NCBI GenBank assembly: GCA_009758405.1
Contig: WSBC01000004.1
Coordinates: 1-64,000, forward strand
Source: Methanobacteriota archaeon
GTDB lineage: Archaea; Thermoplasmatota; Thermoplasmata; Thermoplasmatales; ARK-15
Reading direction: 5' to 3'
DNA length: 64,000 nt
The notes beneath the pieces were generated by a model. The model ran no database searches, was not told the origin of the DNA, and saw nothing but the letters and a program-made list of their open reading frames with translations. Positions 22,086 to 38,788 of this stretch are shown piece after piece (positions within the stretch are counted from its first letter, which is position 1; every line of letters begins with the position of its first letter). The position numbers and the translations under genes are program-made.

Positions 22086-22388
22086 TTATCCGAAGAGTGC
22101 ACCTAGACCAGCCATTGCCTCTTCTTCTTCCTTCTTCTCCTCTTTCTTCTCTTCCTTCTTCTCTTCCTTCTTTTCAGCTGGCTGTGCAGGCTGTGCTGCT
22201 GCAGTAGGCGCAAAAGCTGTTGCCTTTATTGCCTCGTCAATGTTCACCCCTTCAAGAGATGAAATCAATGCCTTAATCTTTGCCTTGTCAGGCTCTCCGC
22301 CAGCAGCCTTTATTATATTCTCCACTCCCTCTTCTGTTATCTTCTGACCCAGTGAATGCAGGATCAGAACACTATATACATATTCCAT
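22086..22388 (-). CDS. rpl12: Ribosomal protein L12 (P1-type)
   Basis: This is archaeal stalk protein aP1. It has an N-terminal helical dimerisation domain ([33 protein letters not shown]), an Ala/Pro hinge, a long KKEE repeat near residues 72-89 and the conserved end MAGLGALFG that binds elongation factors. 100 residues, standard length. A strong GGAGGT precedes the ATG. It is the last ribosomal gene of the L11-L1-L10-L12 series. Confidence 0.96.
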
Positions 22389-22409
22389 TTTTTATACCTC
22401 CTTTTACTT

Positions 22410-23255
22410 TTATATATCTCCCAATTTTTCTTTTATTGTCATCGCCTGCAAATTGGCCTTTGCAAGCAGATGCTTTATCGTCTCAGGTGTGAAATAGTTT
22501 ATATTTATTCCCAATGAAAGGGCCTTCATATAAGCATCTGATAGCATTATGGGAATTGTTAGCTTAGTGTAATAACCTACGTTAAGTGAAAGATTAAATG
22601 CATTCATTATTGAATTCTTTAGGTCCTGGAGAACCTTTTCAGTATCTATCTTCAGTGCATCGCTTCCAAATATGTAACCATTCTCATAGAATGCCCTTAT
22701 CTCAAGACCTACAGGTATTGGCCTTATATCAAGTTTCGCTAACATTTGTGCAAGATCCTTGCTTATCTTTTCACCCTTTTTTACCACCACAGTATCCTTC
22801 TTTATCACTACCTTCCCCTTTTCAATTGATGCAGGTATACCAACCTTCTGAAGATCAGAAACTATCGGACCTGGCTTGAACTCGGTCTCTCCAGCAGGTA
22901 CGACAACATCCTCAGGGGCTATTTCACCACCCTTTGGTGATGCCCTTGTCCTGGATGCCTCAACTATCTTCGCAAGCTTGAATGGATCCTTATCGCTCAC
23001 TATCAATGCGCTCTGGTCTTTAATATATTTTGCAAGCTCCTTTACATTCTTTTTCTTTCCCTCAAGATCCTGTAGGGCAATCGATATGAGTGTATTCTTA
23101 CTTACTATCAATTTTGCATTTCCCCTAAGGCTTCTCCTTATGTTGTTCATCTGTGTGCCTGGAATTCCATGTATGCCAACAATACCAATTACATTGCCCT
23201 CTTCCATTTCCTTCAGGAGCTGCTTTACTTCCTCCTCGTTAGCCTTAGATACCAT
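22410..23255 (-). CDS. rplJ: Ribosomal protein L10 (P0)
   Basis: P0 is the base of the ribosomal stalk. It has an N-terminal rRNA-binding domain with KLIVSKNTLISIAL, an inserted domain II with the family block TEFKPGPIVSDLQKVGIPASIEKGKV, and a C-terminal helical spine for L12 dimers (LKNSIMNAFNLSLNV, ETIKHLLAKANLQAM). The 281-residue protein ends right after the spine in KEKLGDI. The charged tail and GLGALFG-like end common in archaeal P0 are absent. GAGGTGA precedes the ATG, and the L1 gene is one base upstream. Confidence 0.95.
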   Translation of the reverse strand: MVSKANEEEVKQLLKEMEEGNVIGIVGIHGIPGTQMNNIRRSLRGNAKLIVSKNTLISIALQDLEGKKKNVKELAKYIKDQSALIVSDKDPFKLAKIVEASRTRASPKGGEIAPEDVVVPAGETEFKPGPIVSDLQKVGIPASIEKGKVVIKKDTVVVKKGEKISKDLAQMLAKLDIRPIPVGLEIRAFYENGYIFGSDALKIDTEKVLQDLKNSIMNAFNLSLNVGYYTKLTIPIMLSDAYMKALSLGININYFTPETIKHLLAKANLQAMTIKEKLGDI

Positions 23256-23256
23256 A

Positions 23257-23898
23257 TCATTTCACCTCCAGCCTGTAGGCTGAGCCCATGGTGGTTTTTA
23301 CATAAATGCTCTCTATGTTACCTGTACCCTTCTCTAGTTTTGAGGTTATCTTTTTTAATACCTCCTCTATATTCTCTGTAATCTCCTCAGGCTTCATTGC
23401 CCTTGTGCCAACTGGTACATGGAAGGTCCTCTTTTCCCTGCTCCTTGCCCTCACTGTCCTTTTTAAGTTTGAAATAATCTGTGTTGGATCGCTTCCGGGA
23501 GGTATTGGCTTGGGCATTTTACCCCTTGGACCTAGAACAACACCTAACACCTTTCCTATCTTTGTCATCAATGCGGACTCGGCAAGAAAATAATCGTATG
23601 TGTTTGCAAGTTTCTTTGCCCTTCTTTTATCCTCTGCAAGCTTGTCTATCTCTTCCGGGGGAATAACAAGATCCGCAGAATTCTTCGCCCTGTATGCAGT
23701 ATCCCCTGAGGCAAAAACTGCCACCTTTATTTCCTTTCCCCTACCATGGGGAAGGGCAATCTCTTCATTAATCCTTTTTTTAGGATCTGCAAGGTCAACA
23801 TACTTTAGATTTATTGCAATCTCTACACTTTCAAGAAAATTCCTTTTCCTTGATTCCTCAAGCGCCTTTTTAACCACTTCGTATATTGCCTTATCCAT
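23257..23898 (-). CDS. rplA: Ribosomal protein L1
   Basis: This 213-residue L1 protein of the 50S L1 stalk includes RNFLESVEIAINLKYVDL at the start, a central VLGPRGKMPKPIP near 120-132 and RTVRARSREKRTFHVPVG in the second half, all typical of archaeal L1. L1 is a known translational autoregulator in bacteria and methanogens. A structured element directly upstream (23910-23944) fits that role here. The start ATG is preceded by AGGAGG. Confidence 0.96.
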   Translation of the reverse strand: MDKAIYEVVKKALEESRKRNFLESVEIAINLKYVDLADPKKRINEEIALPHGRGKEIKVAVFASGDTAYRAKNSADLVIPPEEIDKLAEDKRRAKKLANTYDYFLAESALMTKIGKVLGVVLGPRGKMPKPIPPGSDPTQIISNLKRTVRARSREKRTFHVPVGTRAMKPEEITENIEEVLKKITSKLEKGTGNIESIYVKTTMGSAYRLEVK

Positions 23899-23909
23899 TT
23901 ATATTCCTC

Positions 23910-23944
23910 CTGTAGTAAAACGAGCAAATATTGCTCTCCTACAG
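23910..23944 (-). promoter_or_regulatory. Probable L1-binding autoregulatory mRNA structure
   Basis: In mRNA sense the sequence folds as stem CTGTAG/CTACAG, an asymmetric internal loop of GA on the 5' side and GTTTTA on the 3' side, then stem GAGCAA/TTGCTC closed by TAT. The 2-nt GA opposite a 6-nt G...A loop between two helices is the architecture described for L1 sites that mimic 23S rRNA. The last stem base adjoins GAGGAAT, so the Shine-Dalgarno sequence of the L1 gene would be masked when L1 is bound. Confidence 0.6.
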
Positions 23945-23981
23945 TTTATTTTACCTCAATTTAATATACTATTTAAATTTT

Positions 23982-24455
23982 TCAATCCTCTATTTTTATT
24001 TCATTCTTTCTTATCTTTTCCTGTACCTCTCTTGGGTCCATGCCCTCCACTGTAACACCCATTGATACACAGGATCCAAGTACCTCCATCACCATTGCCC
24101 TCAGATCAGGGGATAATGAGTCCTGTATCTTCATCCTTGCAATCTTTTTAACTTTTTCAATTGTGAGGTCACCCACCTTGTTTGCCTTTGGATTCCCTGA
24201 GCCCTTTTCTATCCCAAGTTCCTTCTTTATTAGTGCACTTACAGGTGGTGTACCAACAGTAACTGTAAATGTCCTAGTCTTAGGATCCACCGATACCTTT
24301 ACAGGCACCTGCATTCCCTCGTAATTCTTTGTTTTTTCATTTATCTCCTTTACCACCTGCCCTATATTCACTCCCAGTGGTCCAAGTGCTGGACCTAGGG
24401 GTGGGCCAGGTGTGGCCTTTCCACCTTCCACAAGTATTTCAATAGTCTGTACCAT
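23982..24455 (-). CDS. rplK: Ribosomal protein L11
   Basis: This 157-residue L11 binds the GTPase-associated centre of 23S rRNA. It has the conserved N-terminal [19 protein letters not shown] and VKEINEKT segments, [18 protein letters not shown], and a C-terminal RNA-binding domain with [19 protein letters not shown] precedes the ATG. It lies 6 nt after the Spt5 gene and 83 nt before the L1 gene. Confidence 0.96.
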
Positions 24456-24461
24456 TGTTCA

Positions 24462-25376
24462 TCACTCCTTATCAATCACCCTTACTGAACCTGCCCTTAC
24501 AGTAACAGGTATGGGTACTAGGGATTCGGTAAGTTCTACTACTATTTTATCATTTGCCACATCAATTTCAACAATCCTTCCCTTCTCACCCTTGAATGGG
24601 CCATCAATTAGTTCCACAAAATTCCCTACCTGAAGCGTCTCTACAGCAGCCCTGGGTGTCATATAATGCATTATTTCTGATATATCCATCTCACCCTTTA
24701 CTACCCCCTTTATACCCTTTATATTTTTTATGAAGGAGAGCATCCTGTCAGGCTGTGTTGTCTCAACGAACACATATCCCTTTAGCTTTGAGGTCTCACC
24801 TGGAACAAAAATAGAAAATATGTAGTCTATCTTATTCTGTTTTACCTTATTTCCAAGATCCCTTGCCACCTCCACCTCTTTACCTATCTGTACCTTCAGT
24901 GCAACTATTGTTGCCACTATGGTTATCTCTGTACTGCAAGAATTCAATAAAGTGGGGTCTCTAAGTGATTCCAACTTTATTGAAATCTTTGCATGGTCCT
25001 GATATTCAGAGCTCTTTGGTGTAAGTATCTTTATGGTAAATGTAAATTGTCCTCCAGGTATATGTACCATTCTCTCTATTGGATTATTCTTTGATGGAAT
25101 AACAAGCTCAGAGATCTCATCAATCTTCATCTTTTTATTTGCTATACCCTCTGATGAAATTATCCATTCAAGTTCCCTGTCCTTCACCTCAAATTCGAAG
25201 ACCAATGTAAGTTTATAATTTTCAGCATTACCGCCTGTCACTGTTACTACTAGCTCTGCATACCTTCCTGCAGAAATTTCAAATTTTTCTTTATTACATA
25301 TAACGCTAAATTTCTCCTCCCTTTTTTCTCCCAACTTCATTGAATCTGTTAAATTATTACTATCAATCAATTCCAT
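24462..25376 (-). CDS. spt5: Spt5/NusG transcription elongation factor with extra N-terminal domain
   Basis: Residues about 152-235 form the NGN domain (VFVPGETSKLKGYVFVETTQ-like core, bridging RNA polymerase clamp and protrusion) and 248-304 the KOW domain (VGNFVELIDGPFKGEKGRIVEID). Archaeal Spt5 is usually only about 150 residues. Here about 150 residues precede the NGN domain, rich in beta-strand patterns (AELVVTVTGG, YKLTLVFEFEVKD, GQFTFTIKIL) as in an immunoglobulin-like sandwich. The frame is continuous, so it is a real fusion. It is cotranscribed with secE and L11, the classic order. Confidence 0.92.
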   Translation of the reverse strand: MELIDSNNLTDSMKLGEKREEKFSVICNKEKFEISAGRYAELVVTVTGGNAENYKLTLVFEFEVKDRELEWIISSEGIANKKMKIDEISELVIPSKNNPIERMVHIPGGQFTFTIKILTPKSSEYQDHAKISIKLESLRDPTLLNSCSTEITIVATIVALKVQIGKEVEVARDLGNKVKQNKIDYIFSIFVPGETSKLKGYVFVETTQPDRMLSFIKNIKGIKGVVKGEMDISEIMHYMTPRAAVETLQVGNFVELIDGPFKGEKGRIVEIDVANDKIVVELTESLVPIPVTVRAGSVRVIDKE

Positions 25377-25382
25377 TACCCC

Positions 25383-25604
25383 CTAGGGAACCTTTGTAAG
25401 AATTACCATAATATAATAAATTATAAAACCTATTGTACCTATTATTACTATTCCGAGAGCTGTAATACCTACTACCTTCACATACTCATCCCTTGTTGGC
25501 TTCCTTGCCATTTTAAGTACCCTCGAGTACCTTCCCTTCCCTATCCTAGAAAACCAATCCTCGATCTTTTCTTGGATTTCTTCAAATGTATCAACAACTG
25601 TCAT
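25383..25604 (-). CDS. secE: Preprotein translocase subunit SecE (Sss1/Sec61-gamma)
   Basis: This 73-residue protein has an amphipathic N-terminal helix (EEIQEKIEDWFSRIGKGRYSRVLKMARKPTRDEYVKVV) and a single C-terminal membrane helix (GIVIIGTIGFIIYYIMVIL), the form of archaeal SecE/Sss1. It clamps the SecY channel. The position directly upstream of the Spt5 gene matches the conserved secE-nusG-rplK order of bacteria and archaea. Confidence 0.93.
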   Translation of the reverse strand: MTVVDTFEEIQEKIEDWFSRIGKGRYSRVLKMARKPTRDEYVKVVGITALGIVIIGTIGFIIYYIMVILTKVP

Positions 25605-25620
25605 AATAATTACCCCAATC

Positions 25621-26643
25621 CTATTTGACTATATCAAGTTTGATTCCCGAATCTGTAAATGTATAGTTTGGCTTTCCCTTTATGCCTGTTACCACTACCA
25701 TCACCCCCATCCTTCTCTTGTAATCAGGCCTGATGGATGCCCCCCATATTATCCTTGCATTCTTGTTCATCCTTGATTCTATTATTGATACTACCTTGTG
25801 TGCCTCCTCAACTGTCATATCCTCGCCACCTACAACATCAACAATGGCACCTGTAGCATCACTTATGTCAATATCTATCAATGGTGAGTTTATTGCATTG
25901 TTTGTAGCTATCTCTGCCCTTTTTTCACTATCACTCTCCCCCAGCCCTATTACAGCAAGACCACTTCCCTTCATAATTGTCTTAAGATCATTATAATCAA
26001 GATTTATTAAACCAGGTTTTGTAATCATCTCTGATATACCCTTTATAGCCTTAACAAGTATTTCATCCGCTACCTTGAATGCCCTATTTAGTGGAAGTCT
26101 AGGAACAAGCTTGAGAAGCTTGTCGTTCATTACAACAATTACGGAATCTGCCTGTTCAAGGAGCTTATTAAGGCCCCAGACTGCATTTTCAAACCTGTAC
26201 CTTCCCTCAGAACTGAATGGAAATGTTACAACGGCAACAGTAAGTGCACCCAGCTCCTTTGCAATCCTCGCTACAACTGGTGCAGATCCTGTACCTGTGC
26301 CACCTCCCATGCCAGCCGTAATAAATACAATGTCAGAACCCTCCAAAACCCTTTTAATATCCTCCTCCGCCTCCAGGGCCGATTTCATACCTATTTCCGG
26401 TATTGCACCTGCACCAAGGCCTCCAGTTAGCCTCCTCCCAAGTAGTACCTTCCTCTGGGATCTTATCATATACAAATGTGCGGCATCAGTATTCATTGCT
26501 ATCAATTCCACATCCTGTATACCATCCTCTATTATCCTTGATATTGTGTTTGATCCAGCACCCCCGCAACCAACAATCTTTATTTTTGTTCTAAGGGACT
26601 TGAGTATTTCAAGGAGTTCCTGATCTTCAGGATTTTGCTCCAT
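25621..26643 (-). CDS. ftsZ: FtsZ cell-division GTPase
   Basis: The tubulin-like division protein has the N-terminal GCGGAGSNTI, the tubulin signature GMGGGTGTGSAPV near 105, and the T7-loop region NLDYNDLKTIMKGSGLAVIGLG. About 340 residues, with almost no C-terminal tail. I place the start at the ATG at 26643, which has GGTGG just before it, rather than the ATG at 26655 that abuts the dnaG stop. It lies between secE and the primase-like gene in one minus-strand series. Confidence 0.96.
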   Translation of the reverse strand: MEQNPEDQELLEILKSLRTKIKIVGCGGAGSNTISRIIEDGIQDVELIAMNTDAAHLYMIRSQRKVLLGRRLTGGLGAGAIPEIGMKSALEAEEDIKRVLEGSDIVFITAGMGGGTGTGSAPVVARIAKELGALTVAVVTFPFSSEGRYRFENAVWGLNKLLEQADSVIVVMNDKLLKLVPRLPLNRAFKVADEILVKAIKGISEMITKPGLINLDYNDLKTIMKGSGLAVIGLGESDSEKRAEIATNNAINSPLIDIDISDATGAIVDVVGGEDMTVEEAHKVVSIIESRMNKNARIIWGASIRPDYKRRMGVMVVVTGIKGKPNYTFTDSGIKLDIVK

Positions 26644-26655
26644 ATTTACCACCAT

Positions 26656-27861
26656 TTAGATGTTCCTCACTATCAGTTTCATATTGGCGGGTTTTTTCGT
26701 TACATTCAATATCTTCATTCCGTAAATCTCTTCTATGCCCCGCTCATATGCAATATCCACTAGTCTCTGGGATATTATACCGCCCGTGATTAATGTGTTT
26801 CCCTTTATCTCTGTGGTGGAGAGTTTATCAAATAACTCATTCAGCTGTATTGTGCTTATTATATTACCCTCCTTATCAGTTATAAAGGCCACCTTTTTTT
26901 CAAATGCATCCAGTAATAGATCGTCCTTCTTTCTATCCTCACTGATTTCCTCCTTCTCCTCTACCCTATCTTCTTCCTTTTCAGCCTCCTTTACCATTTC
27001 AGATTTTCCCATCTTTTCAAGCTCTTCATTCATCCCATGTGTGGCAAGGTATTGTTCAACAGTCATCTTATTCCTCAGTGCCTTTACTATTTGCTTATAC
27101 GTAAGTTCCTCCACCTCCCTACCAGGTGGTGCCCTTGCTACAAAATCAATCTCAGCTACCTGTAAAAGCTCCTTGAATATCAGGTCACCTCCCCTGTCAC
27201 CATCTAAAAATGCAGTGGCCACCCTTTCTTTAGTGAGATCTATTATTGTCTTGGGTATGTTTGTTCCTTCAACGGCTATTGCATTCTTTATACCATACTT
27301 GAGTAGGTTAAGCACATCTGACCTGCCTTCAACAATTATTATTGCATCGGATGTGGGAACTGCTGGACCTGCTGGGAGCCTGTCCTCACCGTATGTTATT
27401 ATCTCCTCCTTTTCTATTGTCTCCCTTACCACTTGAATAAGGTCTTCACTGAGGTTTTTACCCTGTGAAAGGAGGCTTTCAAGAAGTTCCTTTGCCCTTT
27501 CAACCACCTTCTGCCTTTTTGTTAGCCTTATATCCTCTATAGAAAGTACCTCAAAACTAGCCTTACATGGCCCTACTCTTTCTATAGTCTCCAGAGATGC
27601 TGCAAGGATTGCAGTCTCAACCTGATCGAGGCTTGATGGTATGTAAACAATCCCCTCGGATTTACCCTTCTTTGAGTCTATTTCCACCTCTATCCTCCCT
27701 ATTCTACCACTTTTCTGAAGATCCCTCAAATCAAGTTCCTCACCTAGTAAGCCCTCAGTCTGTCCGAATATTGCCCCCACTACATCGGGCTTTTCTACTA
27801 CACCATCAGCCATGATTTTTGCCTTTATAAGGTATTTAGCTGCATTTGGATCTATATTCAT
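26656..27861 (-). CDS. dnaG: Archaeal DnaG-like primase
   Basis: The N-terminal DPNAAKYLIKAKIMADGVVEKPDVVGAIFGQTEGLLG block is specific to archaeal DnaG. A central Toprim domain follows with IIIVEGRSDVLNLLKYG near 175 and FLDGDRGGDLI, then a charged linker and a conserved C-terminal domain. The archaeal protein has primase activity in vitro and associates with the exosome. I use the ATG at 27861, which has AAGGTG upstream, rather than the GTG at 27870. It is the first gene of the FtsZ/SecE/Spt5/ribosomal series. Confidence 0.95.
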   Translation of the reverse strand: MNIDPNAAKYLIKAKIMADGVVEKPDVVGAIFGQTEGLLGEELDLRDLQKSGRIGRIEVEIDSKKGKSEGIVYIPSSLDQVETAILAASLETIERVGPCKASFEVLSIEDIRLTKRQKVVERAKELLESLLSQGKNLSEDLIQVVRETIEKEEIITYGEDRLPAGPAVPTSDAIIIVEGRSDVLNLLKYGIKNAIAVEGTNIPKTIIDLTKERVATAFLDGDRGGDLIFKELLQVAEIDFVARAPPGREVEELTYKQIVKALRNKMTVEQYLATHGMNEELEKMGKSEMVKEAEKEEDRVEEKEEISEDRKKDDLLLDAFEKKVAFITDKEGNIISTIQLNELFDKLSTTEIKGNTLITGGIISQRLVDIAYERGIEEIYGMKILNVTKKPANMKLIVRNI

Positions 27862-27876
27862 TTTTATCACCTTCTT

Positions 27877-27974
27877 TTAAAAATAGTCATCTCTTCACTT
27901 CATACCCGGACACGTTTAAATTATGATTAATATTTAACGTGAAAGTCATGATGATCAGGGATGACTATTTTTAA
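27877..27974. repeat. 98-nt concentric imperfect palindrome in the dnaG/addB promoter region
   Basis: A perfect 15-nt inverted repeat, TTAAAAATAGTCATC at 27877-27891 and GATGACTATTTTTAA at 27960-27974, encloses a second inverted repeat, CACGTT at 27911-27916 and AACGTG at 27936-27941. Both are centred at 27925.5-27926, and a TCAT/ATGA pair at 27900-27903 and 27948-27951 fits the same axis. The AT-rich centre could hold the dnaG TATA box. It may be a regulatory site, a replication element or a hairpin-forming relic. Confidence 0.7.
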
Positions 27975-28086
27975 TTTCATTAAATTGATTTCATTAATAA
28001 ATTTTTCTCAAATTTTTTTTAAAAAATTGTTCCCTTAACAACCTCTACTAAAAAAGAATAAATATGAATACTCTATTTATTAAATA

Positions 28087-30558
28087 ATGCTTAGGATTTT
28101 ATATGGTAATCCCCTTGAATACATTGAAAAAAATTTAGGGGATGATATTTTTATACTTCCAGATTCTATATCAATAAGGAATGTGGAGATATACCTTCTC
28201 AGGAAAAGGGGTCTTGAATATTTTCCCGCTGAAAAGTTTTTCACAGTTGATTCCTTAGCTGAAAAATTTTTTGATAAAAGATACAAAATAATGCCAAGGT
28301 TCATGGAGAGATATATATGCAAAGAATCACTAAAAGGTATTGCATTTTACAGGGATCTCCATGAAAGTGAGAATTTTATTACACTTCTCCTTGAGGAATA
28401 CCTTGAAATAAAAGAAAATATGGTTATGGGGAAAATGCCAAATAGGATTGGAGAATTTTTCAGGGTATTCAATGAAGAGTATTCAAAATTCCTTGATAGA
28501 CTCAGGGATGGTGTTAAGGTAAAGGGGGAGATATGGCATTTCCTCACAAGGGCAGAGATGACTTATTTACTCGCCTCTGAACTTTCAAAAATGAATGGAA
28601 GGAAAATTAACTTTACAGGATTTTACTATATAAGTCCTACATTGAAGCATCTGATAGATGAGTTAAGAAGGAATAATTATGTCACCTTTATTTCCGAACC
28701 AATTGATGCTGAAAGTTCAATTATACTTGAGAAGAGGCTCATGGCAGACAGGATAGATGGAGAAGGTTTGAAAAAATTCAAATCAGAACTTTATGAATTA
28801 CCCGACAGGAGAAGGGAGGTAAAGTTTATTGCAAATTTTATACTTGAAAAGATTAGTCAACTTGGTCTTTCTTTTTCTGATTTTGTTGTTGCATTTCCTG
28901 ATGCAAAGGTATACCAGTGGTACGTTGAAGAGATATTCAGGGAATATAAAATACCATATTTCATTGAGACAAGGATAAAATTTCCTGAAATGCCCTATTT
29001 TAATTACTTTGTTGAAAAAATTGGAAAAATTAGCCCCAATGATTTGAACGATCTCAAAAATTCACTCTCCAATATTTTGCAGGAGATAATGATTAAATTC
29101 ATGGATGATTCTGAAACCATCCTCAAGATGTGGCAGGCCATTCAGGAATATTTTATAGAGATTGAGGCACTTTCAATTAAGGATGCAAATAGGGCCAAAG
29201 AACTTTTACTTCCCTTCCTTTACACCGTTTCCTTCGGTAGATTCTATGGAAATTTCAACACTGTACCCATTGTAGACCTTGGAAATGTTCATTTCAGAAA
29301 GGGAATTTATCTAATAATAGGTGGAATGAGCGATGAGGACTTTCCCAGGCCCCTCAGGGGTGATATAATATTTCAAAATGAGGCATCAAACATTTATAAA
29401 AGGGATTTCAGGACTCATGAGGGAAATGAAAAGTACAGGCTTTACTCTGCGATTCAAAACTTCCAAAATATAATATTCACTTACCCTTATTTCAACAATG
29501 ATGGTAAGAGGGTACTCCAATCCTACATACTTGATTCAATCAGGGTAAATGGATTTTCAGATTTTTCAATAATAAGAATGGGTTCTACTGAATTAATATT
29601 CAATAAGGGAAGAATATATAGTGAAAGGGATGCAAAAATTCTTAATGTTAATAAAAATGGGAACTCAGAACAAAATGAATTTTGTTCCATTGAAGAGTTG
29701 AGGATAAAAATCTCAAACATTGATTTAACACCATCACACATTACTGTATATAACAAATGTCCAAGGAAGTTCTTTCTTATGTATGTAATGGAAATAAAAT
29801 ACCCTGAGGAGGAACTTTCACCTGCAAAAAGGGGTAGTTTTGCGCATGATATTCTTAGAGATTTCTATAAAAAATATAATGATTTACATATAATATCAAA
29901 GATGCCAGAAAATACACTAAAAAAGGAAATAAAAGATATGGTAAACGGAATTAAAATTGAGCATGATGAGGGCATGGCTTTCAAATCTAGGCTTTCAAGG
30001 CAAATATATGATGCAATAAAGACCGATATCAATATTAGTAGTGAAAGAAAGGTCATTGGAACGGAATTGCCCTTTATGATTGAAATTGGAAATAGGAAGA
30101 TAAGGGGCAGAATAGACAGGCTAGATTCCATGCAAGATTATCAGATATTGATTGATTATAAATATTCCAAATACAGGGATACACTAAATATGTTCATAAA
30201 AAAGGCGGATGAGCTTTACAATCCTGAAAAGGACTTTAACCTTCCAATTTACATCCTCTGGCTTTTAAAGGTGAAAAAATCAAAAAAATTCGTTGCATTT
30301 TATTATCCAATAGTGTCAATGGGAAGGACAAGCCCAGGGAAATGGATGAGGGTATATACAAATAGCGCCACTCCAAAAGAATTTCTAAGCAATAATGCAT
30401 CCTTTTTTTATAATAACATATTTATAGAAAATCTAGAGAATAGAATAAAGGAGATAATAGATGGAATAAACAGATGCCAGTTTCCTATGACTGAAAATAA
30501 AAATATTTGCAGAAACTGTGAATACAGGAGGATCTGTGGTGGTATGAATGAACTGTGA
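28087..30558 (+). CDS. AddB-like nuclease of a helicase-nuclease complex
   Basis: This 823-residue protein resembles AddB. The N-terminal helicase-like part (FILPDSISIRNVEIYLL) shows no intact Walker A, as often seen in AddB-type subunits. The C-terminal RecB-type PD-(D/E)XK nuclease starts near 555 with TVYNKCPRKF, then RGSFAHDILRDFY, RGRIDRLD and ILIDYKYSK, and ends with CRNCEYRRIC. The first Cys plus the last three form the four-cysteine iron-sulphur staple known from AddB and Cas4. It overlaps the AddA-like gene by 11 nt. The expected role is resection of double-strand breaks. Confidence 0.88.
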   Translation: MLRILYGNPLEYIEKNLGDDIFILPDSISIRNVEIYLLRKRGLEYFPAEKFFTVDSLAEKFFDKRYKIMPRFMERYICKESLKGIAFYRDLHESENFITLLLEEYLEIKENMVMGKMPNRIGEFFRVFNEEYSKFLDRLRDGVKVKGEIWHFLTRAEMTYLLASELSKMNGRKINFTGFYYISPTLKHLIDELRRNNYVTFISEPIDAESSIILEKRLMADRIDGEGLKKFKSELYELPDRRREVKFIANFILEKISQLGLSFSDFVVAFPDAKVYQWYVEEIFREYKIPYFIETRIKFPEMPYFNYFVEKIGKISPNDLNDLKNSLSNILQEIMIKFMDDSETILKMWQAIQEYFIEIEALSIKDANRAKELLLPFLYTVSFGRFYGNFNTVPIVDLGNVHFRKGIYLIIGGMSDEDFPRPLRGDIIFQNEASNIYKRDFRTHEGNEKYRLYSAIQNFQNIIFTYPYFNNDGKRVLQSYILDSIRVNGFSDFSIIRMGSTELIFNKGRIYSERDAKILNVNKNGNSEQNEFCSIEELRIKISNIDLTPSHITVYNKCPRKFFLMYVMEIKYPEEELSPAKRGSFAHDILRDFYKKYNDLHIISKMPENTLKKEIKDMVNGIKIEHDEGMAFKSRLSRQIYDAIKTDINISSERKVIGTELPFMIEIGNRKIRGRIDRLDSMQDYQILIDYKYSKYRDTLNMFIKKADELYNPEKDFNLPIYILWLLKVKKSKKFVAFYYPIVSMGRTSPGKWMRVYTNSATPKEFLSNNASFFYNNIFIENLENRIKEIIDGINRCQFPMTENKNICRNCEYRRICGGMNEL

Positions 30559-33364
30559 TAAACTGACAGATAAGCAGAGGAAAATAGTTGATTATGCTGG
30601 AAGGGATGATGTTTCCACCTTTGCAGTTGCAGGTTCAGGGAAAACATCAGTACTTGTTTGCTCCTATCTAAAACTCCTTGAATTGATGTCTTCGGACATT
30701 GAAGAATCCGTCTCAAGGATTCTTGTTATTACATTCACTGATGATGCTGCCACAGAGATAAGAAAGAGAATAAGGGAGGTATTGATTGAAAAATATAAAT
30801 ATATAGGACCTTTAAACTATATTTCAACAATTCATAGCTTTGCAAACGAGATATTAAAACGCTTCTCAATAGAGCTAGGTATAAATCCAGAATATACCGT
30901 TGGTGAGGATTACCTTATAGCAGAGATTATGGACAATGCATACAAGGAAGCAAGGGACAGGTTATCTCCTGAAGAGATTGAGCTCCTTGATGATTATCTA
31001 TCTGTAATAGACATAGGAAGGAGAAGCCTAAAATCTGTCGTATTTACAATATACTGGAAGATGAAATCCTCAGGATGGACCAGGGAGTTAACAATATCAC
31101 ATTTAAATGAATTAAAAAATAAGATCAAAGGAAATGGTAATGAAGAAAGTATTGTGGAATCCTTTATTAAGATATTTTCAAACTTCCATGACATCGTGGA
31201 AAAAAGAAAAAGGTTATCTGGTGTTCTTTCATATGATGACATACTTTATTATGCGAACCAGCTTTTAGAAAAAGAGGAAATCAGGGAATTCTTCAGGAAG
31301 AAGTTTGAATATGTTATTGTGGATGAATACCAGGACACTAGTACTTTACAACAGGAGATAATAGATAAGATTTCAAGAAGGGGTAGGAGGATCTTTGCGG
31401 GGGATTACTTTCAGAGCATATATGAATGGAGAGATGCTACACCTGTTAGCACCATGGAGTTCATAAGAAGGAATAATTTTAAGATCCTTATAATGGATGA
31501 GAACTTCAGATCTGTCCCTAGCATAATCGATTTTATAAATAAACTATTTTCAAACCTTTTCAAAATGAATATAAAGGAAATCGATTACATAGGAATTAGG
31601 CCAACTGAAAAAGAACTTGATGGTGCTGGTGTTTTCATAATAAATGTTATGGGGAGTTCCATTGAAGAAATGAGGAGGGATGAGGCTGAAAAAATTTCAA
31701 ACATTATTCTTAATATCGTTTCAAAACTGGAGATAAGGGATAGGGATGGAGAATTGAGGAAGATCAACTATGGGGATATAGCAATACTGTTCAGGAAAAG
31801 ATCTGGAATGGCAACATATGCTAAGGCACTTCAGAAAAAGGGTATCAGGTATTCTTTTATAGAGAGGGGATCCTTTTTTGAGAGTGAGGAGATTTCAACA
31901 ATAATTAATATGCTTATTTGCCTTAGGGATAATACCTGGAGGGATATACACAATGGAAATGCATTTGAGGTACTAAAATTTGCATATGACATTTCAATGG
32001 AAGAATTCATAAGGGGATCAGGTGAAATCATTAAAAAATTCCTCAGGGACATGGAGATTTTAAGCTCTAAAAAGGATGGTAGAAAGGACCTTCTTATTCT
32101 TGAATTCCTGAGATTAACTGAATATGACATTAAGGTACTAAAGAGGCCCGATGGGCTTCAAAGATACCTGAATATTTACAAGCTTATAGATATGGCAAGG
32201 GAGAAGGAAGAGGATGGTATTATTGGCCTGGGTAGGTTTTTGGATGTTCTAATGGATATGAAGGAGAATGAGGATATTTCATCAATTCCATTATTTGATC
32301 CTATGGATAATTCTGTAAGATTAATGACAATACATTCTTCAAAGGGTCTTGAGTTTCCAGTTGTATTCATTGCGGATCTATTCTCAAAATTGAACTATAG
32401 AACTGGAAATGTAATTTTTGACAGGGAAACAGGCATATTCATTGATATAGAGGATCTTGCTGACACAAACATTATTAAAAAAATAAAGGAGAGGATGAAG
32501 GAAAGGGATTTCAGGGAGAATATAAGGGTACTTTATGTAGCATTTACAAGGGCAAAACAGTATCTTTTTATAGGCCATCCCGAAACATTGAATGAAAAAG
32601 AAACTTTTTCAAGATTGATTGAGGATGCCCTGGGTAGGGAATTCCTTATGCCTTACATTGAGAGGTGTAACGGATTAATTTCAGGTAATGAGATTTTGCC
32701 AAAGGATGAAAAGATAATCGATTTCAATATATACAAAATAGATAAATTTCCACCAGATCCAATATTCCTGAGCGTTTCAGACATTAAGAATTATTATTTT
32801 TGTCCTGTGTACTTCGAGAAATATAAACTAAGGATATCGAATCAAGGGGAATTTGGTACATCTTTCCATGAGTTCATGGAGGGAGTGGACTTTTTAAATC
32901 CACCTGAAGGGGTCTTTGGGGATATATTAGAAAATATTCTTAATACAAACTTGGGAAGTATGATAATTAAAAATAAAGAGTCACTGAAAAGAGAATATCC
33001 ATTCCATATCAGGTACAGGGATGTAATAATAAGGGGGAGGATGGATCTATTAATACCTGAGGAGGGCATTATAATAGATTATAAGACAGGGGAGGAGAAT
33101 GAGGGTGATAAGATTCAAATGCTTCTATATTCATATGCTTATAAAAAGATTTTTGGAAGAATACCTGATAAATGCATAATTTATTATACAAAGAGAAATG
33201 AAATCAAGGAATTCAAGTTTATAGAAAATGACCTGAATTATCTTGAGGAGATCCTTAATAAAATGATTAATAGCATAAAATATGGAAATTTCCAAAAAAA
33301 TTATGAGAAATGTGAAAGATGCCAAATTAGGGATTTCTGTGGGGACCTTGAAAAACAAAATTAA
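30548..33364 (+). CDS. AddA-like UvrD-family helicase-nuclease
   Basis: The 938-residue protein has the full set of SF1A helicase motifs: LTDKQRKIVDYAG, Walker A AVAGSGKTSVLV near 27, ITFTDDAATEIRKRI, VIVDEYQDTS near 258, MTIHSSKGLEFPVVFIADLF and VLYVAFTRAKQYLF. The C-terminal nuclease (about 741-938) has GTSFHEFMEG, IRGRMDLLI and IIIDYKTGEE. Cysteines in YYFCPVYF and in CERCQIRDFC give the same four-Cys pattern as the AddB-like partner. It is the motor and probably a second nuclease of the complex. Confidence 0.9.
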   Translation: MNCDKLTDKQRKIVDYAGRDDVSTFAVAGSGKTSVLVCSYLKLLELMSSDIEESVSRILVITFTDDAATEIRKRIREVLIEKYKYIGPLNYISTIHSFANEILKRFSIELGINPEYTVGEDYLIAEIMDNAYKEARDRLSPEEIELLDDYLSVIDIGRRSLKSVVFTIYWKMKSSGWTRELTISHLNELKNKIKGNGNEESIVESFIKIFSNFHDIVEKRKRLSGVLSYDDILYYANQLLEKEEIREFFRKKFEYVIVDEYQDTSTLQQEIIDKISRRGRRIFAGDYFQSIYEWRDATPVSTMEFIRRNNFKILIMDENFRSVPSIIDFINKLFSNLFKMNIKEIDYIGIRPTEKELDGAGVFIINVMGSSIEEMRRDEAEKISNIILNIVSKLEIRDRDGELRKINYGDIAILFRKRSGMATYAKALQKKGIRYSFIERGSFFESEEISTIINMLICLRDNTWRDIHNGNAFEVLKFAYDISMEEFIRGSGEIIKKFLRDMEILSSKKDGRKDLLILEFLRLTEYDIKVLKRPDGLQRYLNIYKLIDMAREKEEDGIIGLGRFLDVLMDMKENEDISSIPLFDPMDNSVRLMTIHSSKGLEFPVVFIADLFSKLNYRTGNVIFDRETGIFIDIEDLADTNIIKKIKERMKERDFRENIRVLYVAFTRAKQYLFIGHPETLNEKETFSRLIEDALGREFLMPYIERCNGLISGNEILPKDEKIIDFNIYKIDKFPPDPIFLSVSDIKNYYFCPVYFEKYKLRISNQGEFGTSFHEFMEGVDFLNPPEGVFGDILENILNTNLGSMIIKNKESLKREYPFHIRYRDVIIRGRMDLLIPEEGIIIDYKTGEENEGDKIQMLLYSYAYKKIFGRIPDKCIIYYTKRNEIKEFKFIENDLNYLEEILNKMINSIKYGNFQKNYEKCERCQIRDFCGDLEKQN

Positions 33365-33940: not shown

Positions 33941-36900
33941 TTATTCTTTTTTCTCCTCTGTTGTCTGTTCTTTAGGTGGTTCCTGCCAGGGTTTAACCCC
34001 GCCCTTTTTTCCTCTCTTTATCATATAACCTATTGCAATGCCAACAAGGAGGCCCACAACTAGGCCTATGGGCAATCCAACGTAATATGCCTGGGAAACC
34101 ATATTACCTATCAGATTCTGTTCTTTAGCGCTTGCAAGTGCCTGATTGTTTGTTTTTATGGTTACTGTCCCTGTGGAGCTACCTGCAAAGTTGCTTGCAA
34201 CTACCTTTATTGTATGGTTTCCATCTGCAAGGCCGCTTGTATTGAAGGTATACGAGTTCAATCCGGTTACATTGAATCCCATGCTATCTATGTATAGCCA
34301 AACTGAATTTACATGGTCACCTGTAACGGTGAATGTTATAGTTATTGTACCATTCAGCTTTGAACCAGAAACTGGAGATGTGATTGAAACCGTAGGTGGT
34401 GTATTTAATATGTATATTGGCTCGCTTGTTGTGTAGCTTGTTCCTGCCTCATTCGTAACAATTAGTTTCAGAACATGTGACCCATCTGAATAACTTGCAG
34501 TATTGAATGTTGAATTTATTGTACTGTTGTCAAGCATCAATGTAACATTCTTTATATAATCACCGCTAACAAGGTACTGAACATTTACTGTTCCCTTAAC
34601 AAATGATCCAGAGGTTGGTGAAACAAACTGCGCATATGGAACATTGTTATTAACTATTATTGTTTCTGTTGTACTGCCATAATATCCTGCCATGTTTGTT
34701 GCCATAACTGTTATTGTATGTGGGCCATCTGTCAACTTAGTGGTATCAAGAACATAATAGTTTCCTGCAGGAACATATGTTATGCCATCTACAATGACAC
34801 TCTTGCTCTGTATGTAACTACCGCTGACAGAGAATGTTATATTGACACTTCCCTTCACATATGCATTCTGTGCAGGTGATGTGATTGAAACCGTAGGTGC
34901 AGGTCCAACATTAATAAATGATGCTGTTGCAGAATAATTCATATTCATGCTGTTCTCCATTGTTACTGTGATTGTATGAGGTCCTGGGGCCAATTTTGTT
35001 AGATTCAATGAAATTGTTCCGGAGGAGTATGTAAGAGAATTGACCTGTAATGTAACATTGGAGCCATTATCAATCCTGTAAAAGGCATTTATTATTGGTA
35101 CAGGTGAAACAATCTCATAGTTTGCATTTACATTACCATACATATAGTCAGAGATTCCTGTTATTGATAATCCCTCAGTTTGTACTATACCGCTTATCTT
35201 TATTGGCCAAACTCCGCCACCTGCATTTGTCTGGTGCACAACTATTGTGTATATGCCTGTAGTATCAACTGGAACAGTCAAGGAAGTACCGTTCATCATA
35301 TTGTTGGAAGGTATAAACATTCCACCGCCATAATAGTTCCATAGGAACGGTACTGTACTTCCAACTATCATTCCATATGGATCAAGGACAAATACGTCCA
35401 TGGATGTTCCTGGATCATTCCATACTACCTGGATGTTCAATCCTGTAATACCCAGATTTGTTACATCGAAGTAATAGAATCTAACATCGCCTGACTCGTA
35501 CCTCCAGTCAAGGGCTCCCATTCCATACATTAGACCATTATTGTAAAGCGGAGCTGATGAATACTTATCAGCACCTCCAAATGAATATACCTTGTTAACA
35601 TCGTTCAAATCAGTCATTACTGCTACTGAAGATGGTATTAGCTGTTTGAAACCATTTGAGCCTGTAAGAACAATAAAGCCTGAATATACTCCGTTGCTGG
35701 CATCGTTGGGCACATTAAGTGTTGCTGTGAATGTAGCAGTTGAGTTTGGTCCTACTGTAAGTGTATTCTGTGAAAATGTTATCCAAGGAATTGGCTCATT
35801 CTTAAGATAGTACACATTCAATGTAAAAGGAAGATTCCATATGTCTGGATATATTGAGGATAAATCCCCTATATTATACAAATATGTCCTAATAAGTGGG
35901 TACATTGTGAATGGGTTTGCATGCATGTTTATTGTTACAATCTGGGTATTATACCAATTGTACGCATCATTTACAAGGTTCATTGTTGATGCCCTTGGCA
36001 CGGGAACTGTCTGGCCAAAATAGTTTGTCTGATTTGATGTTGCTCCGCTCCAATCATAAACAAATAATGTAATATATCCTGGCCATGTGAATGTAGAAGT
36101 GCCCATTGTAACTGGAAGAACATAGGGTGAGTTAATCTCTATTGCTATCATATCAGTACCACTTGGAATAGGACCGAATACTTTTGTGAAATTTATATAT
36201 TCCCCCGCATAATATTGACCATTCCAACCTCTTACCCATGAATAGAGTCCATTATTTGGATTAGAGGTGTTCCAGTTTAGTGTTATGGATTTCTGATTAA
36301 ACACAACAAGATCCTGTGTTCCTATGTTTATATTAAGGGTCTTATTTGTTGGATTCTTCACCGTAAAAGTATTTTGTGTGCTCTGGCCAGGTGATAGATA
36401 TCCTGCAAACCAGTTTGCCATAGGGACGTTTGCTGGATATGCAGCTCCAGGAGAGAACATTGAGGACCAGTAGTCAAGCATTGCATAAATTTGACTCATC
36501 ACATTCTGATATGTTGCATAGCTAGTTGTGTAAAATGCACCTACTGTTGAATTACCTAGAACATCAGCAACTGCATAGTATGCATTTACCTGTCCTGCAC
36601 CCTGTGTATAGGGCGCATTATAAAGATCTACTGCTGTATTCATTATAACATTCTTAACATATATTGGATCGAAGGTCATTCCCTTTTCATTCATTGCCTG
36701 GATAACAAGGGCCGCTACACCTGCTGTCATTGGTGTTGCCTGGCTCGTTCCACCAAATATTCCAACGCCTGGAGGGAGCCAAGGTAAACCTTCATAATAG
36801 TTTATGCTTGCAGGTACCCAGCTGAATGCACCAACTGCAACAACATCCGGTTTTATATCACCCGTGTATGCAGGACCGCGATCGGACCATGCAATTACCT

Positions 36901-38788
36901 GTCCGCTTTTATTGGAAACTCCCCATCCATAGGCCCTTATCCAGTTAGACTCTGTGGATGCACCAACTGTTAATGGTATAAGTGCACCACCAGGTGATGT
37001 ATCTGTTCCATAGCCCGGACCGCCATTGCCCATTGCATGTACAAACAATGTCCCTGGATAATTGGGTGCCATAACACCCGGAAGCATTAATGTATCTTCC
37101 AAGGCACTCATTGCATCATAACCAATACCTGTTAAGAGTATAGGCCACTCAGATATACCCCAAGAGTTACTCTCTATCTGTGCCCTATGGTTACCTGTGT
37201 ATTGCCAGGAAAGAGTGGTATAATTAAAATCAAATCCTGCTGCCCACATCCAACCATAAAATACATCACCTATATACAATGCGGGCACGGAAATTATCTT
37301 TGCACCAGGTGCTATTCCAGGAAGTGAGTAGTAAGTACCATTATTATATAAATTATATTTAACTGTTCCTTGGCTAGCCACAACACTTGCGGTGAATGTC
37401 CCATGATATTCACCATAATCAAAGCTTATCAGGTTTGAATACAGATATCCATCCTTTGTAAGGCCACTGATCACTTTACCTGTATATGCACCGAACATAT
37501 AATTGAACAATGGAGAAGAAGCATTGAACCAGGGAATTAATGTATTACCGCCAATGGTACCGAAGTCCACATAAATGCCATAATTGGGATAATAATAGCT
37601 TAAGAATGTTGTATTATCATTTATATGATGGTATGGCTCTAATGAATTAAGGGGCCACTGTACAAAGCTGAATGGATTTGTTTGATAACCTAAATCATTA
37701 AGGTATGTATTCCATCCAGTTATGTAAACTGTATCAAATGTGAATGGGTTTATTGAGGGTATTACAACTGTAGGAACCACTGTCAGGGTATAATTCCAAA
37801 GATCACTCAAACCTAGATAATCTCCATATCCATCAGTAATCAAGGGCATGCTGAGAAAGCCAAATGCATATATACCAACCTTGAGATTGTAATTATTATA
37901 TGTATAATTGAATGTGGCAGGTTTGATATAATTAGTTGTACTTCCAAGGGTAACATTTTCAGGAATTAAATAGGAAATAAACGGTGATCCTGAGCCAGAT
38001 AAAATATTATTCACATCATATATATATGATGTCAGTCCCTTTGTGGGTAAATAAACAATAGAATTGTTAACAAATGCCTTGCCAAGATAGTGTGCATTAG
38101 GGAGATTTACGTAAGGTAATGGTATATTGCTTGACCAGTTTGTAGGATAACCTGCTGTTAAGTTAACAAAAAAGTACATGCCAGTTACTCCAAGGGACAT
38201 ACCATCAGCATCCATATATACAGGCCTGCCAGATGAATCCCTTGCAATTGAATTCTGAAGATTAGGGTTACCGAAGAATGTTCCTGTATCAACTATTGCC
38301 ACATTTACGCCAGTACCATTAACTCCAAATGCATTGTATGCCTGGTTTACACCCAATATATTCCTTGCCTGATATAGATCAGGCTGTATTGCCTGGCTTT
38401 CTATGTTCTTAGGCTGGCTATAATTCAATTTTACATCTGGCACTATTCTTAATATATTACTATTCTTTGCAAGTTCTTTTATCTGGGAAGCTGTTGAAAA
38501 GCCCGATGCAATGAAATACTTTCCTATGGGGTATACTCCCATTACTCCCATACCATTCTTAAGATCCAAGGAAGATCCAGTCCCTAGTACTAAGATTCTT
38601 TCAATCCCTGTGGAATTGAGCAATGAAGGATCAACCTTTGACAGTGGATTTACTGTTCCCTGTGAACTCAATTGATTGCTTATTGTTGTTGCATTGGCAC
38701 TGTGTAAAACTGCAGGCAATATTGAAAGTATCATTGCCAGTGCTATTGCAAATACTAATGCCTTTTTTATAATGCTATGCTCGTTCAT
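33941..38788 (-). CDS. Giant secreted subtilisin-like (S8) protease with C-terminal membrane anchor
   Basis: The 1615 residues begin with a signal peptide (basic MNEHSIIKK, hydrophobic core to about residue 33) and a propeptide. The S8 domain has the Asp in VAIVDTGTF (D167), the His in GEYHGTFTASV near 461 and the Ser in FGGTSQATPMTAG near 681. An insert of nearly 300 residues separates Asp from His. Beta-rich regions follow, with at least three Ig-like repeats containing SITSP.....G.V.ITF patterns (about 1280-1560), then a membrane helix and a basic tail. It probably digests peptides outside the cell. GGAGGT precedes the ATG. Confidence 0.92.
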   Translation of the reverse strand: MNEHSIIKKALVFAIALAMILSILPAVLHSANATTISNQLSSQGTVNPLSKVDPSLLNSTGIERILVLGTGSSLDLKNGMGVMGVYPIGKYFIASGFSTASQIKELAKNSNILRIVPDVKLNYSQPKNIESQAIQPDLYQARNILGVNQAYNAFGVNGTGVNVAIVDTGTFFGNPNLQNSIARDSSGRPVYMDADGMSLGVTGMYFFVNLTAGYPTNWSSNIPLPYVNLPNAHYLGKAFVNNSIVYLPTKGLTSYIYDVNNILSGSGSPFISYLIPENVTLGSTTNYIKPATFNYTYNNYNLKVGIYAFGFLSMPLITDGYGDYLGLSDLWNYTLTVVPTVVIPSINPFTFDTVYITGWNTYLNDLGYQTNPFSFVQWPLNSLEPYHHINDNTTFLSYYYPNYGIYVDFGTIGGNTLIPWFNASSPLFNYMFGAYTGKVISGLTKDGYLYSNLISFDYGEYHGTFTASVVASQGTVKYNLYNNGTYYSLPGIAPGAKIISVPALYIGDVFYGWMWAAGFDFNYTTLSWQYTGNHRAQIESNSWGISEWPILLTGIGYDAMSALEDTLMLPGVMAPNYPGTLFVHAMGNGGPGYGTDTSPGGALIPLTVGASTESNWIRAYGWGVSNKSGQVIAWSDRGPAYTGDIKPDVVAVGAFSWVPASINYYEGLPWLPPGVGIFGGTSQATPMTAGVAALVIQAMNEKGMTFDPIYVKNVIMNTAVDLYNAPYTQGAGQVNAYYAVADVLGNSTVGAFYTTSYATYQNVMSQIYAMLDYWSSMFSPGAAYPANVPMANWFAGYLSPGQSTQNTFTVKNPTNKTLNINIGTQDLVVFNQKSITLNWNTSNPNNGLYSWVRGWNGQYYAGEYINFTKVFGPIPSGTDMIAIEINSPYVLPVTMGTSTFTWPGYITLFVYDWSGATSNQTNYFGQTVPVPRASTMNLVNDAYNWYNTQIVTINMHANPFTMYPLIRTYLYNIGDLSSIYPDIWNLPFTLNVYYLKNEPIPWITFSQNTLTVGPNSTATFTATLNVPNDASNGVYSGFIVLTGSNGFKQLIPSSVAVMTDLNDVNKVYSFGGADKYSSAPLYNNGLMYGMGALDWRYESGDVRFYYFDVTNLGITGLNIQVVWNDPGTSMDVFVLDPYGMIVGSTVPFLWNYYGGGMFIPSNNMMNGTSLTVPVDTTGIYTIVVHQTNAGGGVWPIKISGIVQTEGLSITGISDYMYGNVNANYEIVSPVPIINAFYRIDNGSNVTLQVNSLTYSSGTISLNLTKLAPGPHTITVTMENSMNMNYSATASFINVGPAPTVSITSPAQNAYVKGSVNITFSVSGSYIQSKSVIVDGITYVPAGNYYVLDTTKLTDGPHTITVMATNMAGYYGSTTETIIVNNNVPYAQFVSPTSGSFVKGTVNVQYLVSGDYIKNVTLMLDNSTINSTFNTASYSDGSHVLKLIVTNEAGTSYTTSEPIYILNTPPTVSITSPVSGSKLNGTITITFTVTGDHVNSVWLYIDSMGFNVTGLNSYTFNTSGLADGNHTIKVVASNFAGSSTGTVTIKTNNQALASAKEQNLIGNMVSQAYYVGLPIGLVVGLLVGIAIGYMIKRGKKGGVKPWQEPPKEQTTEEKKE

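Follow-up and report, generated by a model that had tools for sequence, protein, structure and literature searches.

What is a perfect palindrome doing just upstream of an archaeal dnaG gene? In the window, that is, the whole 64,000-nucleotide stretch of Thermoplasmatota DNA analysed here, two 15-nt arms, TTAAAAATAGTCATC and GATGACTATTTTTAA, are reverse complements without a mismatch, just as the first-pass annotation had read them. No other perfect inverted repeat of this length with a spacer of 100 nt or less lies in the 64 kb, and of 2000 dinucleotide shuffles made from the intergenic region (225 bases, 27862-28086), 1 contained a perfect inverted repeat of 15. An inner 6-nt repeat (CACGTT / AACGTG), which had been described as sharing the centre of the arms, does exist but its centre lies 0.5 base away, and it is absent from the leaders of the family's three other genomes (L003-L005). 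Thus, the concentric symmetry is incidental. The palindrome DNA occupies one place in its own genome (DNA search; genome 89% complete). With up to two mismatches allowed, the 15-nt arm occurs in that genome at 14 places, 2 of them exact (these arms) and 12 with two mismatches, against 13 matches for a backwards control pattern. A hairpin element with terminal repeats, one of the functions proposed at first, does not fit one genome place and significant model matches (see below) only at dnaG, and we likewise rejected a mobile REP/MITE-type hairpin because the searches showed no dispersed copies.

The position of the palindrome gives a first hint. It had been placed in the divergent promoter of dnaG and AddAB-like genes. 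It does lie between these genes, but downstream of the TATA-like box and predicted start of dnaG, and the TATA-like box of the AddB-like gene is outside it (Table 1). Judged by the spacing from the dnaG box, the palindrome would lie in the 5' leader of dnaG, after the predicted start of transcription and ahead of the Shine-Dalgarno sequence. In fact, this layout recurs in relatives: all 19 leaders inspected have a TATA-like box 26-36 nt ahead of the stem (by patterns picked after viewing the leaders), and 39 of the 50 leaders with a strong stem have one 22-40 nt upstream of the 5' arm. Of the 59 TATA-like matches that lie no more than 60 nt from the arm, 46 fall into the 24-35 nt bins. From the 3' arm to the start codon the median distance is 22.5 nt. 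The stretch has fold z-scores of -4.07 in the dnaG sense and -4.87 on the opposite strand; because both strands fold well, folding alone cannot assign the strand.

Table 1. Features of the dnaG leader and its surroundings in the window.
Feature	Position	Strand	Basis or remark
Left outer arm, TTAAAAATAGTCATC	27877-27891		sequence
Right outer arm, GATGACTATTTTTAA	27960-27974		sequence
Inner 6-nt inverted repeat, left arm CACGTT	27911-27916	no strand	not conserved
Inner 6-nt inverted repeat, right arm AACGTG	27936-27941	no strand	not conserved
TATA-like box of the dnaG promoter, AATTTATTAA	27994-28003	-	sequence and spacing in relatives
Predicted dnaG transcription start, outer end of 5' arm	27972-27977	-	inferred from TATA spacing
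5' arm of leader stem, UUAAAAAUAGUCAUC in RNA	27960-27974	-	sequence; conserved in alignments A2, A4
5' half of loop: GAUCAUCAUGACUUUCA, window version of conserved AUCACAUAUCACGCUCA / UCAY-rich segment	27940-27956	-	
Large loop separating the arms	27892-27959	-	
3' arm of leader stem, GAUGACUAUUUUUAA in RNA, includes U-tract	27877-27891	-	
Shine-Dalgarno-like sequence of dnaG, AAGGTGAT	27866-27873	-	unpaired in predicted fold of window leader
dnaG, archaeal DnaG	26656-27861	-	ATG at 27861; NCBIfam NF003108, 517 bits
TATA-like box of the AddB-like gene, AATAAATAT	~28058-28066		~25 nt before its ATG; gene from 28087

Is the element kept in relatives? To answer this we compared the window's family (f1) with two sister families of the same order (f4 and f5). 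A dnaG match was found in 57 of the 61 genomes searched; 24 of the 61 belong to f1, f4 or f5, of which 20 have a dnaG match and 4 have none. The element stands before dnaG in all 20 (19 leaders were read directly and that of G056 was found by model; the leader set omits L030 and L031, where the contig ends at the gene). It is visible by eye in the three families as GGGAAAATRGTCATC ... GATGRCTATTTTCCC flanking CTCACCTCATCACATATCACGCTCA, the f1 versions being the most divergent, and the loop core UNACNYUCA is nearly invariant in alignment A2. The first-pass annotation had suspected a functional-looking element tied to dnaG and had named unconserved arms in relatives among the findings that would speak against it. 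What we find is the opposite, arms that are conserved and an element that is kept before dnaG.

We then scanned genomes with two covariance models, R1, built from 19 of the f1/f4/f5 leaders, and R2, built from 16 f4/f5 leaders with the window's family left out (alignment A3, which held two antisense rows, was excluded). Over 117 genomes of the order, R1 matched exactly the 20 f1/f4/f5 genomes, largely by construction since 19 of the 20 built the model; the new information is that G056 matches and that no other genome of the order does. In a scan of 400 genomes of the class, R1 matched 23, of which 18 were known and 5 were others (E 8.2e-5 to 0.012), and all five additional matches have a DnaG-like gene (52-54% identical) immediately downstream. 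With R2, the window copy was the best place in its genome at 37.6 bits (E 1.1e-6), the next place elsewhere scoring 13.6 bits, and there were matches at dnaG in G001, G003 and the five class genomes just named (E 1.2e-5 to 0.0052). In G004, a genome of the window's family, the dnaG place ranked first but was weak (E 0.029), and R2 missed the dnaG leaders of four f33/f34 genomes. A second R2 match in G001 (26 bits) is antisense within a 463-codon open frame and was taken as chance. Even at a lax cut-off in 16 genomes, the best R1 place off dnaG reached 20.9 bits, as against 48-92 at dnaG, and no significant model match was found away from dnaG in the genomes searched. R1 scored the window copy at 48.1 bits in sense and 38.0 in antisense, a difference that is partly by construction because the models were built from dnaG-sense sequences.

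The evolution of the stem bears on which molecule is under selection. The stem structure is conserved with compensatory change, more weakly so in f4/f5 alone. In A2 (19 sequences, 18 distinct) 8 of 20 pairs have changed on both sides, where shuffles averaged 3.6 and 1 of 500 was as high, and the covariation score was 0.265 against a shuffle mean of 0.166, with 0 of 500 as high and slid versions at or below 0.142 (kinship being ignored in both comparisons). For f4/f5 alone, again ignoring kinship, the 4 pairs with change on both sides were matched by 30 of 500 shuffles and the number of pair types by 161 of 500, and a covariation score of 0.201 was reached by 1 of 500. When the 18 distinct rows are read in the dnaG sense, their pairs 3-16 comprise 33 G-U cells and 3 A-C cells, counts that the antisense would swap; all 16 pairs in 19 rows give 36 and 8. 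G-U cells far outnumber A-C cells, and a DNA palindrome would not tolerate G-U; the pattern fits a dnaG-sense RNA and not a DNA site. In a single stem search near the start codon, with cut-offs at scores of 28 and 24, all 24 leaders of f1, f4, f5, f9 and f10 scored at least 28. Of 153 control genes, drawn exclusively from 9 f1, f4 and f5 loci and from the window itself, with ATG starts assigned mechanically, 3 scored at least 28 and 13 at least 24. In each of the 24 leaders the observed stem was unmatched by any of 20 shuffles.

How far does the leader extend in the phylum? We gathered 93 dnaG leaders in total, including 52 from other families, whose representatives were hand-picked among the matches listed and are not random. 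Within these 52, the stem score is at least 28 in 14 and at least 24 in 26. The arms of distant families share a common look, for example GGAAAAACGGG/CCTGTTTTTCC in f33, GAAGAACAGCG/CGCTGTTTTTC in f8 and GAAAGATAGCAC/GTGCTATTTTTC in f48. About half of the other-family leaders fall under the cut-off, including all from f14, f19, f28, f37, f38, f42, f49-f51, f57 and f58, and some sub-cut-off leaders in f8, f22, f32 and f52 carry a U-tract near the start and TCAY runs. With its filters off, R1 gave four matches at E of at most 0.05 over 40 further leaders, all in f33/f34. Since R1 finds few distant leaders and R2 misses those of f33/f34, it is the stem and TCAY tests, not the models, that support the wide distribution. 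The distant families likely belong to the same leader type, less certainly than the core, and least surely where loops exceed 130 nt. Two other families of the window's order, f3 and f6 (the latter taken to include Thermoplasma), lack the element: none of the 17 leaders examined attains even the lower of the two stem cut-offs, and R2 gave no match better than E 0.15 in 7 genomes of the two families. A different conserved short element stands just before the Shine-Dalgarno sequence in f3 leaders L020, L021 and L023-L028, e.g. ATTACTTTCACAGTAA, a small hairpin with UUCAC in its loop.

What does the stem hold? When the first 50 loop nucleotides are weighted over 22 families, TCAC is the top-enriched 4-mer (34.4 against 14.4 in shuffles, z 7.8), and TCAY reaches 66.4 where 39.3 are expected (sd 3.3; maximum of 200 shuffles 48.8). 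Its reverse complement RTGA shows no enrichment in the same 50 nucleotides (8.5 against 8.4), and the remaining loop carries little signal (TCAY 10.8 against 8.1, sd 2.2). Successive UCAC/UCAU motifs are mostly 5-9 nt apart, with a second group of spacings at 13-15; the window's own loop, with 4 TCAY and 3 RTGA, is a weak example. Short single-stranded motifs lined up in this way on a stem point to a protein that may carry several RNA-binding sites. KH-domain proteins are linked to UCAY: Nova-type KH proteins bind UCAY repeats, and TRAP binds GAG repeats. These targets, like the dnaG loop, present a short repeated single-stranded motif, here UCAC/UCAU, but Nova and TRAP are eukaryotic or bacterial proteins, whereas the regulator of the dnaG leader is only postulated. 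The KH-domain repertoire itself gave no clear clue to the ligand: over the 17 genomes counted, KH_1 matches number 3-5 per genome in 9 that bear the leader and 3-6 in 8 that do not.

To explain these results we propose that dnaG is preceded by a conserved leader RNA, which on the comparative evidence is almost certain, and that the palindrome is probably the closing stem of this structured leader, with which the dnaG mRNA begins. By computation, some 15 nt directly behind the predicted start site pair with a segment ~20 nt ahead of the dnaG start codon and enclose the large UCAC/UCAU-rich loop, which the stem would present as a multivalent single-stranded binding site. It seems probable, too, that dnaG expression is controlled through a protein bound to the leader, which may act via translation, decay or read-through of the leader. 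Sequestration of the Shine-Dalgarno sequence is not clearly seen: its pairing probability ranges from 0.00 to 0.61 in 18 scored leaders (6 further leaders were unscored) and is at least 0.5 in only 4 of the 18. The step under control may therefore be decay, read-through of the U-tract, or the access of ribosomes next to the stem.

Which protein could bind? The simplest and most natural regulator would be DnaG itself or the DnaG-exosome complex, because archaeal DnaG has been described as an exosome subunit that binds RNA (PMC4227792). The protein encoded downstream is thus an RNA-binding protein, and self-binding is possible. Such feedback would resemble that of L7Ae, which controls its own gene through the leader of its mRNA; this archaeal 5' leader, like that of dnaG, has a TATA box, a Shine-Dalgarno sequence and RNA structure (PMC5539422). 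However, the L7Ae leader has a kink-turn bound by L7Ae, whereas the dnaG leader has a long terminal stem and a UCAY-rich loop and its ligand is only inferred. Two facts count against DnaG feedback. The f3/f6 leaders have no strong stem although exosome structures are reported for Thermoplasma acidophilum (PMC11201974), and DnaG and Rrp4 prefer poly(A), not UCAY, in PMC4227792, whose sections consulted describe no leader or autoregulation. We regard DnaG or the exosome as a possible but rather unlikely identity for the bound protein. More speculative still is an ancient RNA feedback device of the Thermoplasmatota, in which the UCAY-repeat loop would let either an RNA-binding protein dedicated to this task or the machinery of DnaG and exosome sense and set the level of DnaG.

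Other functions must be weighed against a cis-acting, protein-bound leader. The U-tract of the 3' arm could stop RNA polymerase, the outcome (a short terminated RNA or read-through into dnaG) being set by stem folding or by a bound factor. Such an attenuator would suit the TTTT that 40 of the 50 strong-stem leaders carry within the 3' arm, with one or more such leaders in 15 of 22 families, and it has a parallel in the archaeal S15 leaders (those of Methanomicrobia), where poly-U stretches that follow are noted as possible termination signals (PMC7247131). Yet the arm has no TTTT in 7 of 22 families, the tract pairs with the 5' end instead of trailing a compact hairpin, and A-U pairs drift to G-U from the A side only, which by itself would retain the U's; we consider attenuation improbable. 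The leader might also be processed or terminated off as a 100-200 nt RNA that acts alone, e.g. as a partner of DnaG or the exosome. Its self-contained stem with both ends paired, a TATA-like box at the right distance and the one significant place per genome would all be in keeping with a free small RNA, but model matches are significant only at dnaG in the genomes searched and the short distance from the 3' arm to the start codon suits a cis element, which makes this reading quite improbable. Decidedly improbable is an element for mRNA stability only, in which pairing of the 5' end would protect the transcript against 5'-3' exonuclease without any specific ligand: the stem does begin at the predicted 5' end, but shielding leaves the UCAY-rich loop and the nearly invariant core unexplained.

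Could the conservation instead be partly coding, with a short upstream frame whose translation regulates dnaG? In 17 of 25 leaders, including 13 of 15 in f4, an open frame that starts from an ATG inside the leader runs across the conserved motif, and 9 of those 13 share a frame reading ITL. However, the 17 use different frames (11 have frame 1, 4 have frame 2 and 2 have frame 0), ATG is replaced by ATA in about half of the aligned leaders, and 8 of 25 have no usable start. No frame crosses the motif in f5, in the four f9 leaders or in L004, L014 and L018; frame lengths and ends vary, and frames and starts are not kept beyond f4. Stem pairing, and the families that share the loop motif yet lack an ATG, require an RNA reading in any case, and a leader peptide is very improbable. 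Last in probability comes the earlier idea of a DNA-level operator, cruciform or replication-linked site common to the dnaG and AddAB-like promoters. It has in its favour the perfect symmetry in the window species and the divergent AddAB-like genes of the window's genus. In fact, AddAB-like genes adjoin dnaG in only 1 of 20 loci searched (L127, of the window's genus), while dnaG is the only gene shared next to the element across these loci (5-16 kb, with unequal flanks). The proposal of a two-way operator fails on this ground and on the G-U pairs by which the stem evolves, which would break a DNA palindrome. We also rejected an operator or cruciform because relatives do not keep the double-stranded symmetry, with G-U replacing Watson-Crick pairs in one sense; in addition, the repeat lies inside the predicted transcript, and a replication origin would leave the spacing to TATA box and start codon unexplained. 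A DNA-level site is thus extremely improbable.

With a leader RNA as the preferred reading, is it a known one? Rfam 15 gave no family at the gathering cut-off for window positions 27600-28260 or for 18 loci, only sub-cut-off matches, and in a further 17 loci the only matches at cut-off were two tRNAs, both outside the leaders. Within the open-access journal literature, no earlier description of a dnaG leader stood among the entries listed. In its main text, one survey that includes archaea (PMC7247131) mentions neither dnaG, primase nor Thermoplasma, and the main text of another (PMC2864571) does not mention dnaG. The L4, eL15 and S15 archaeal leaders are, like that of dnaG, lineage-restricted, structured and found comparatively, but differ in genes and structures (Eckert and Weinberg, PMC7247131). 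We rate the element as a new leader RNA, leader-type regulation as such being already known. The element recurs in many families of one phylum, and DnaG has two assigned roles, that of a primase by name and, on experimental grounds, that of an exosome subunit. Should DnaG or the exosome prove to bind the leader, a single short RNA would give direct access to the in vivo role of archaeal DnaG and the control of its level; should the partner be another protein, the leader would serve as bait for finding it. A true feedback device would link RNA turnover to a gene annotated as a primase.

The window offers some further observations on the genes around the leader. On one side, dnaG, ftsZ, spt5, L11, L1, L10 and L12 form a single minus-strand run (22086-27861), which is complete in G001 and present without ftsZ in G003. 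No ribosomal-protein run was found beside dnaG in the other 18 of the 20 loci when searched with the window proteins, and L123 gave one weak FtsZ match (25%). We accordingly rejected a leader of the L11-L1-L10-L12 operon, as those genes stand beside dnaG only in G001 and G003. Within the run, the Spt5/NusG protein (24462-25376) carries an N-terminal stretch of ~150 residues, with the NGN domain from residue 159. On the other side, AddB-like and AddA-like nuclease-helicase genes (PDDEXK_1, UvrD) lie at 28087-33364, in an archaeon, and beyond them a 1615-codon open frame (33941-38788) resembles, by eye from its translation, a secreted subtilisin-type protease.
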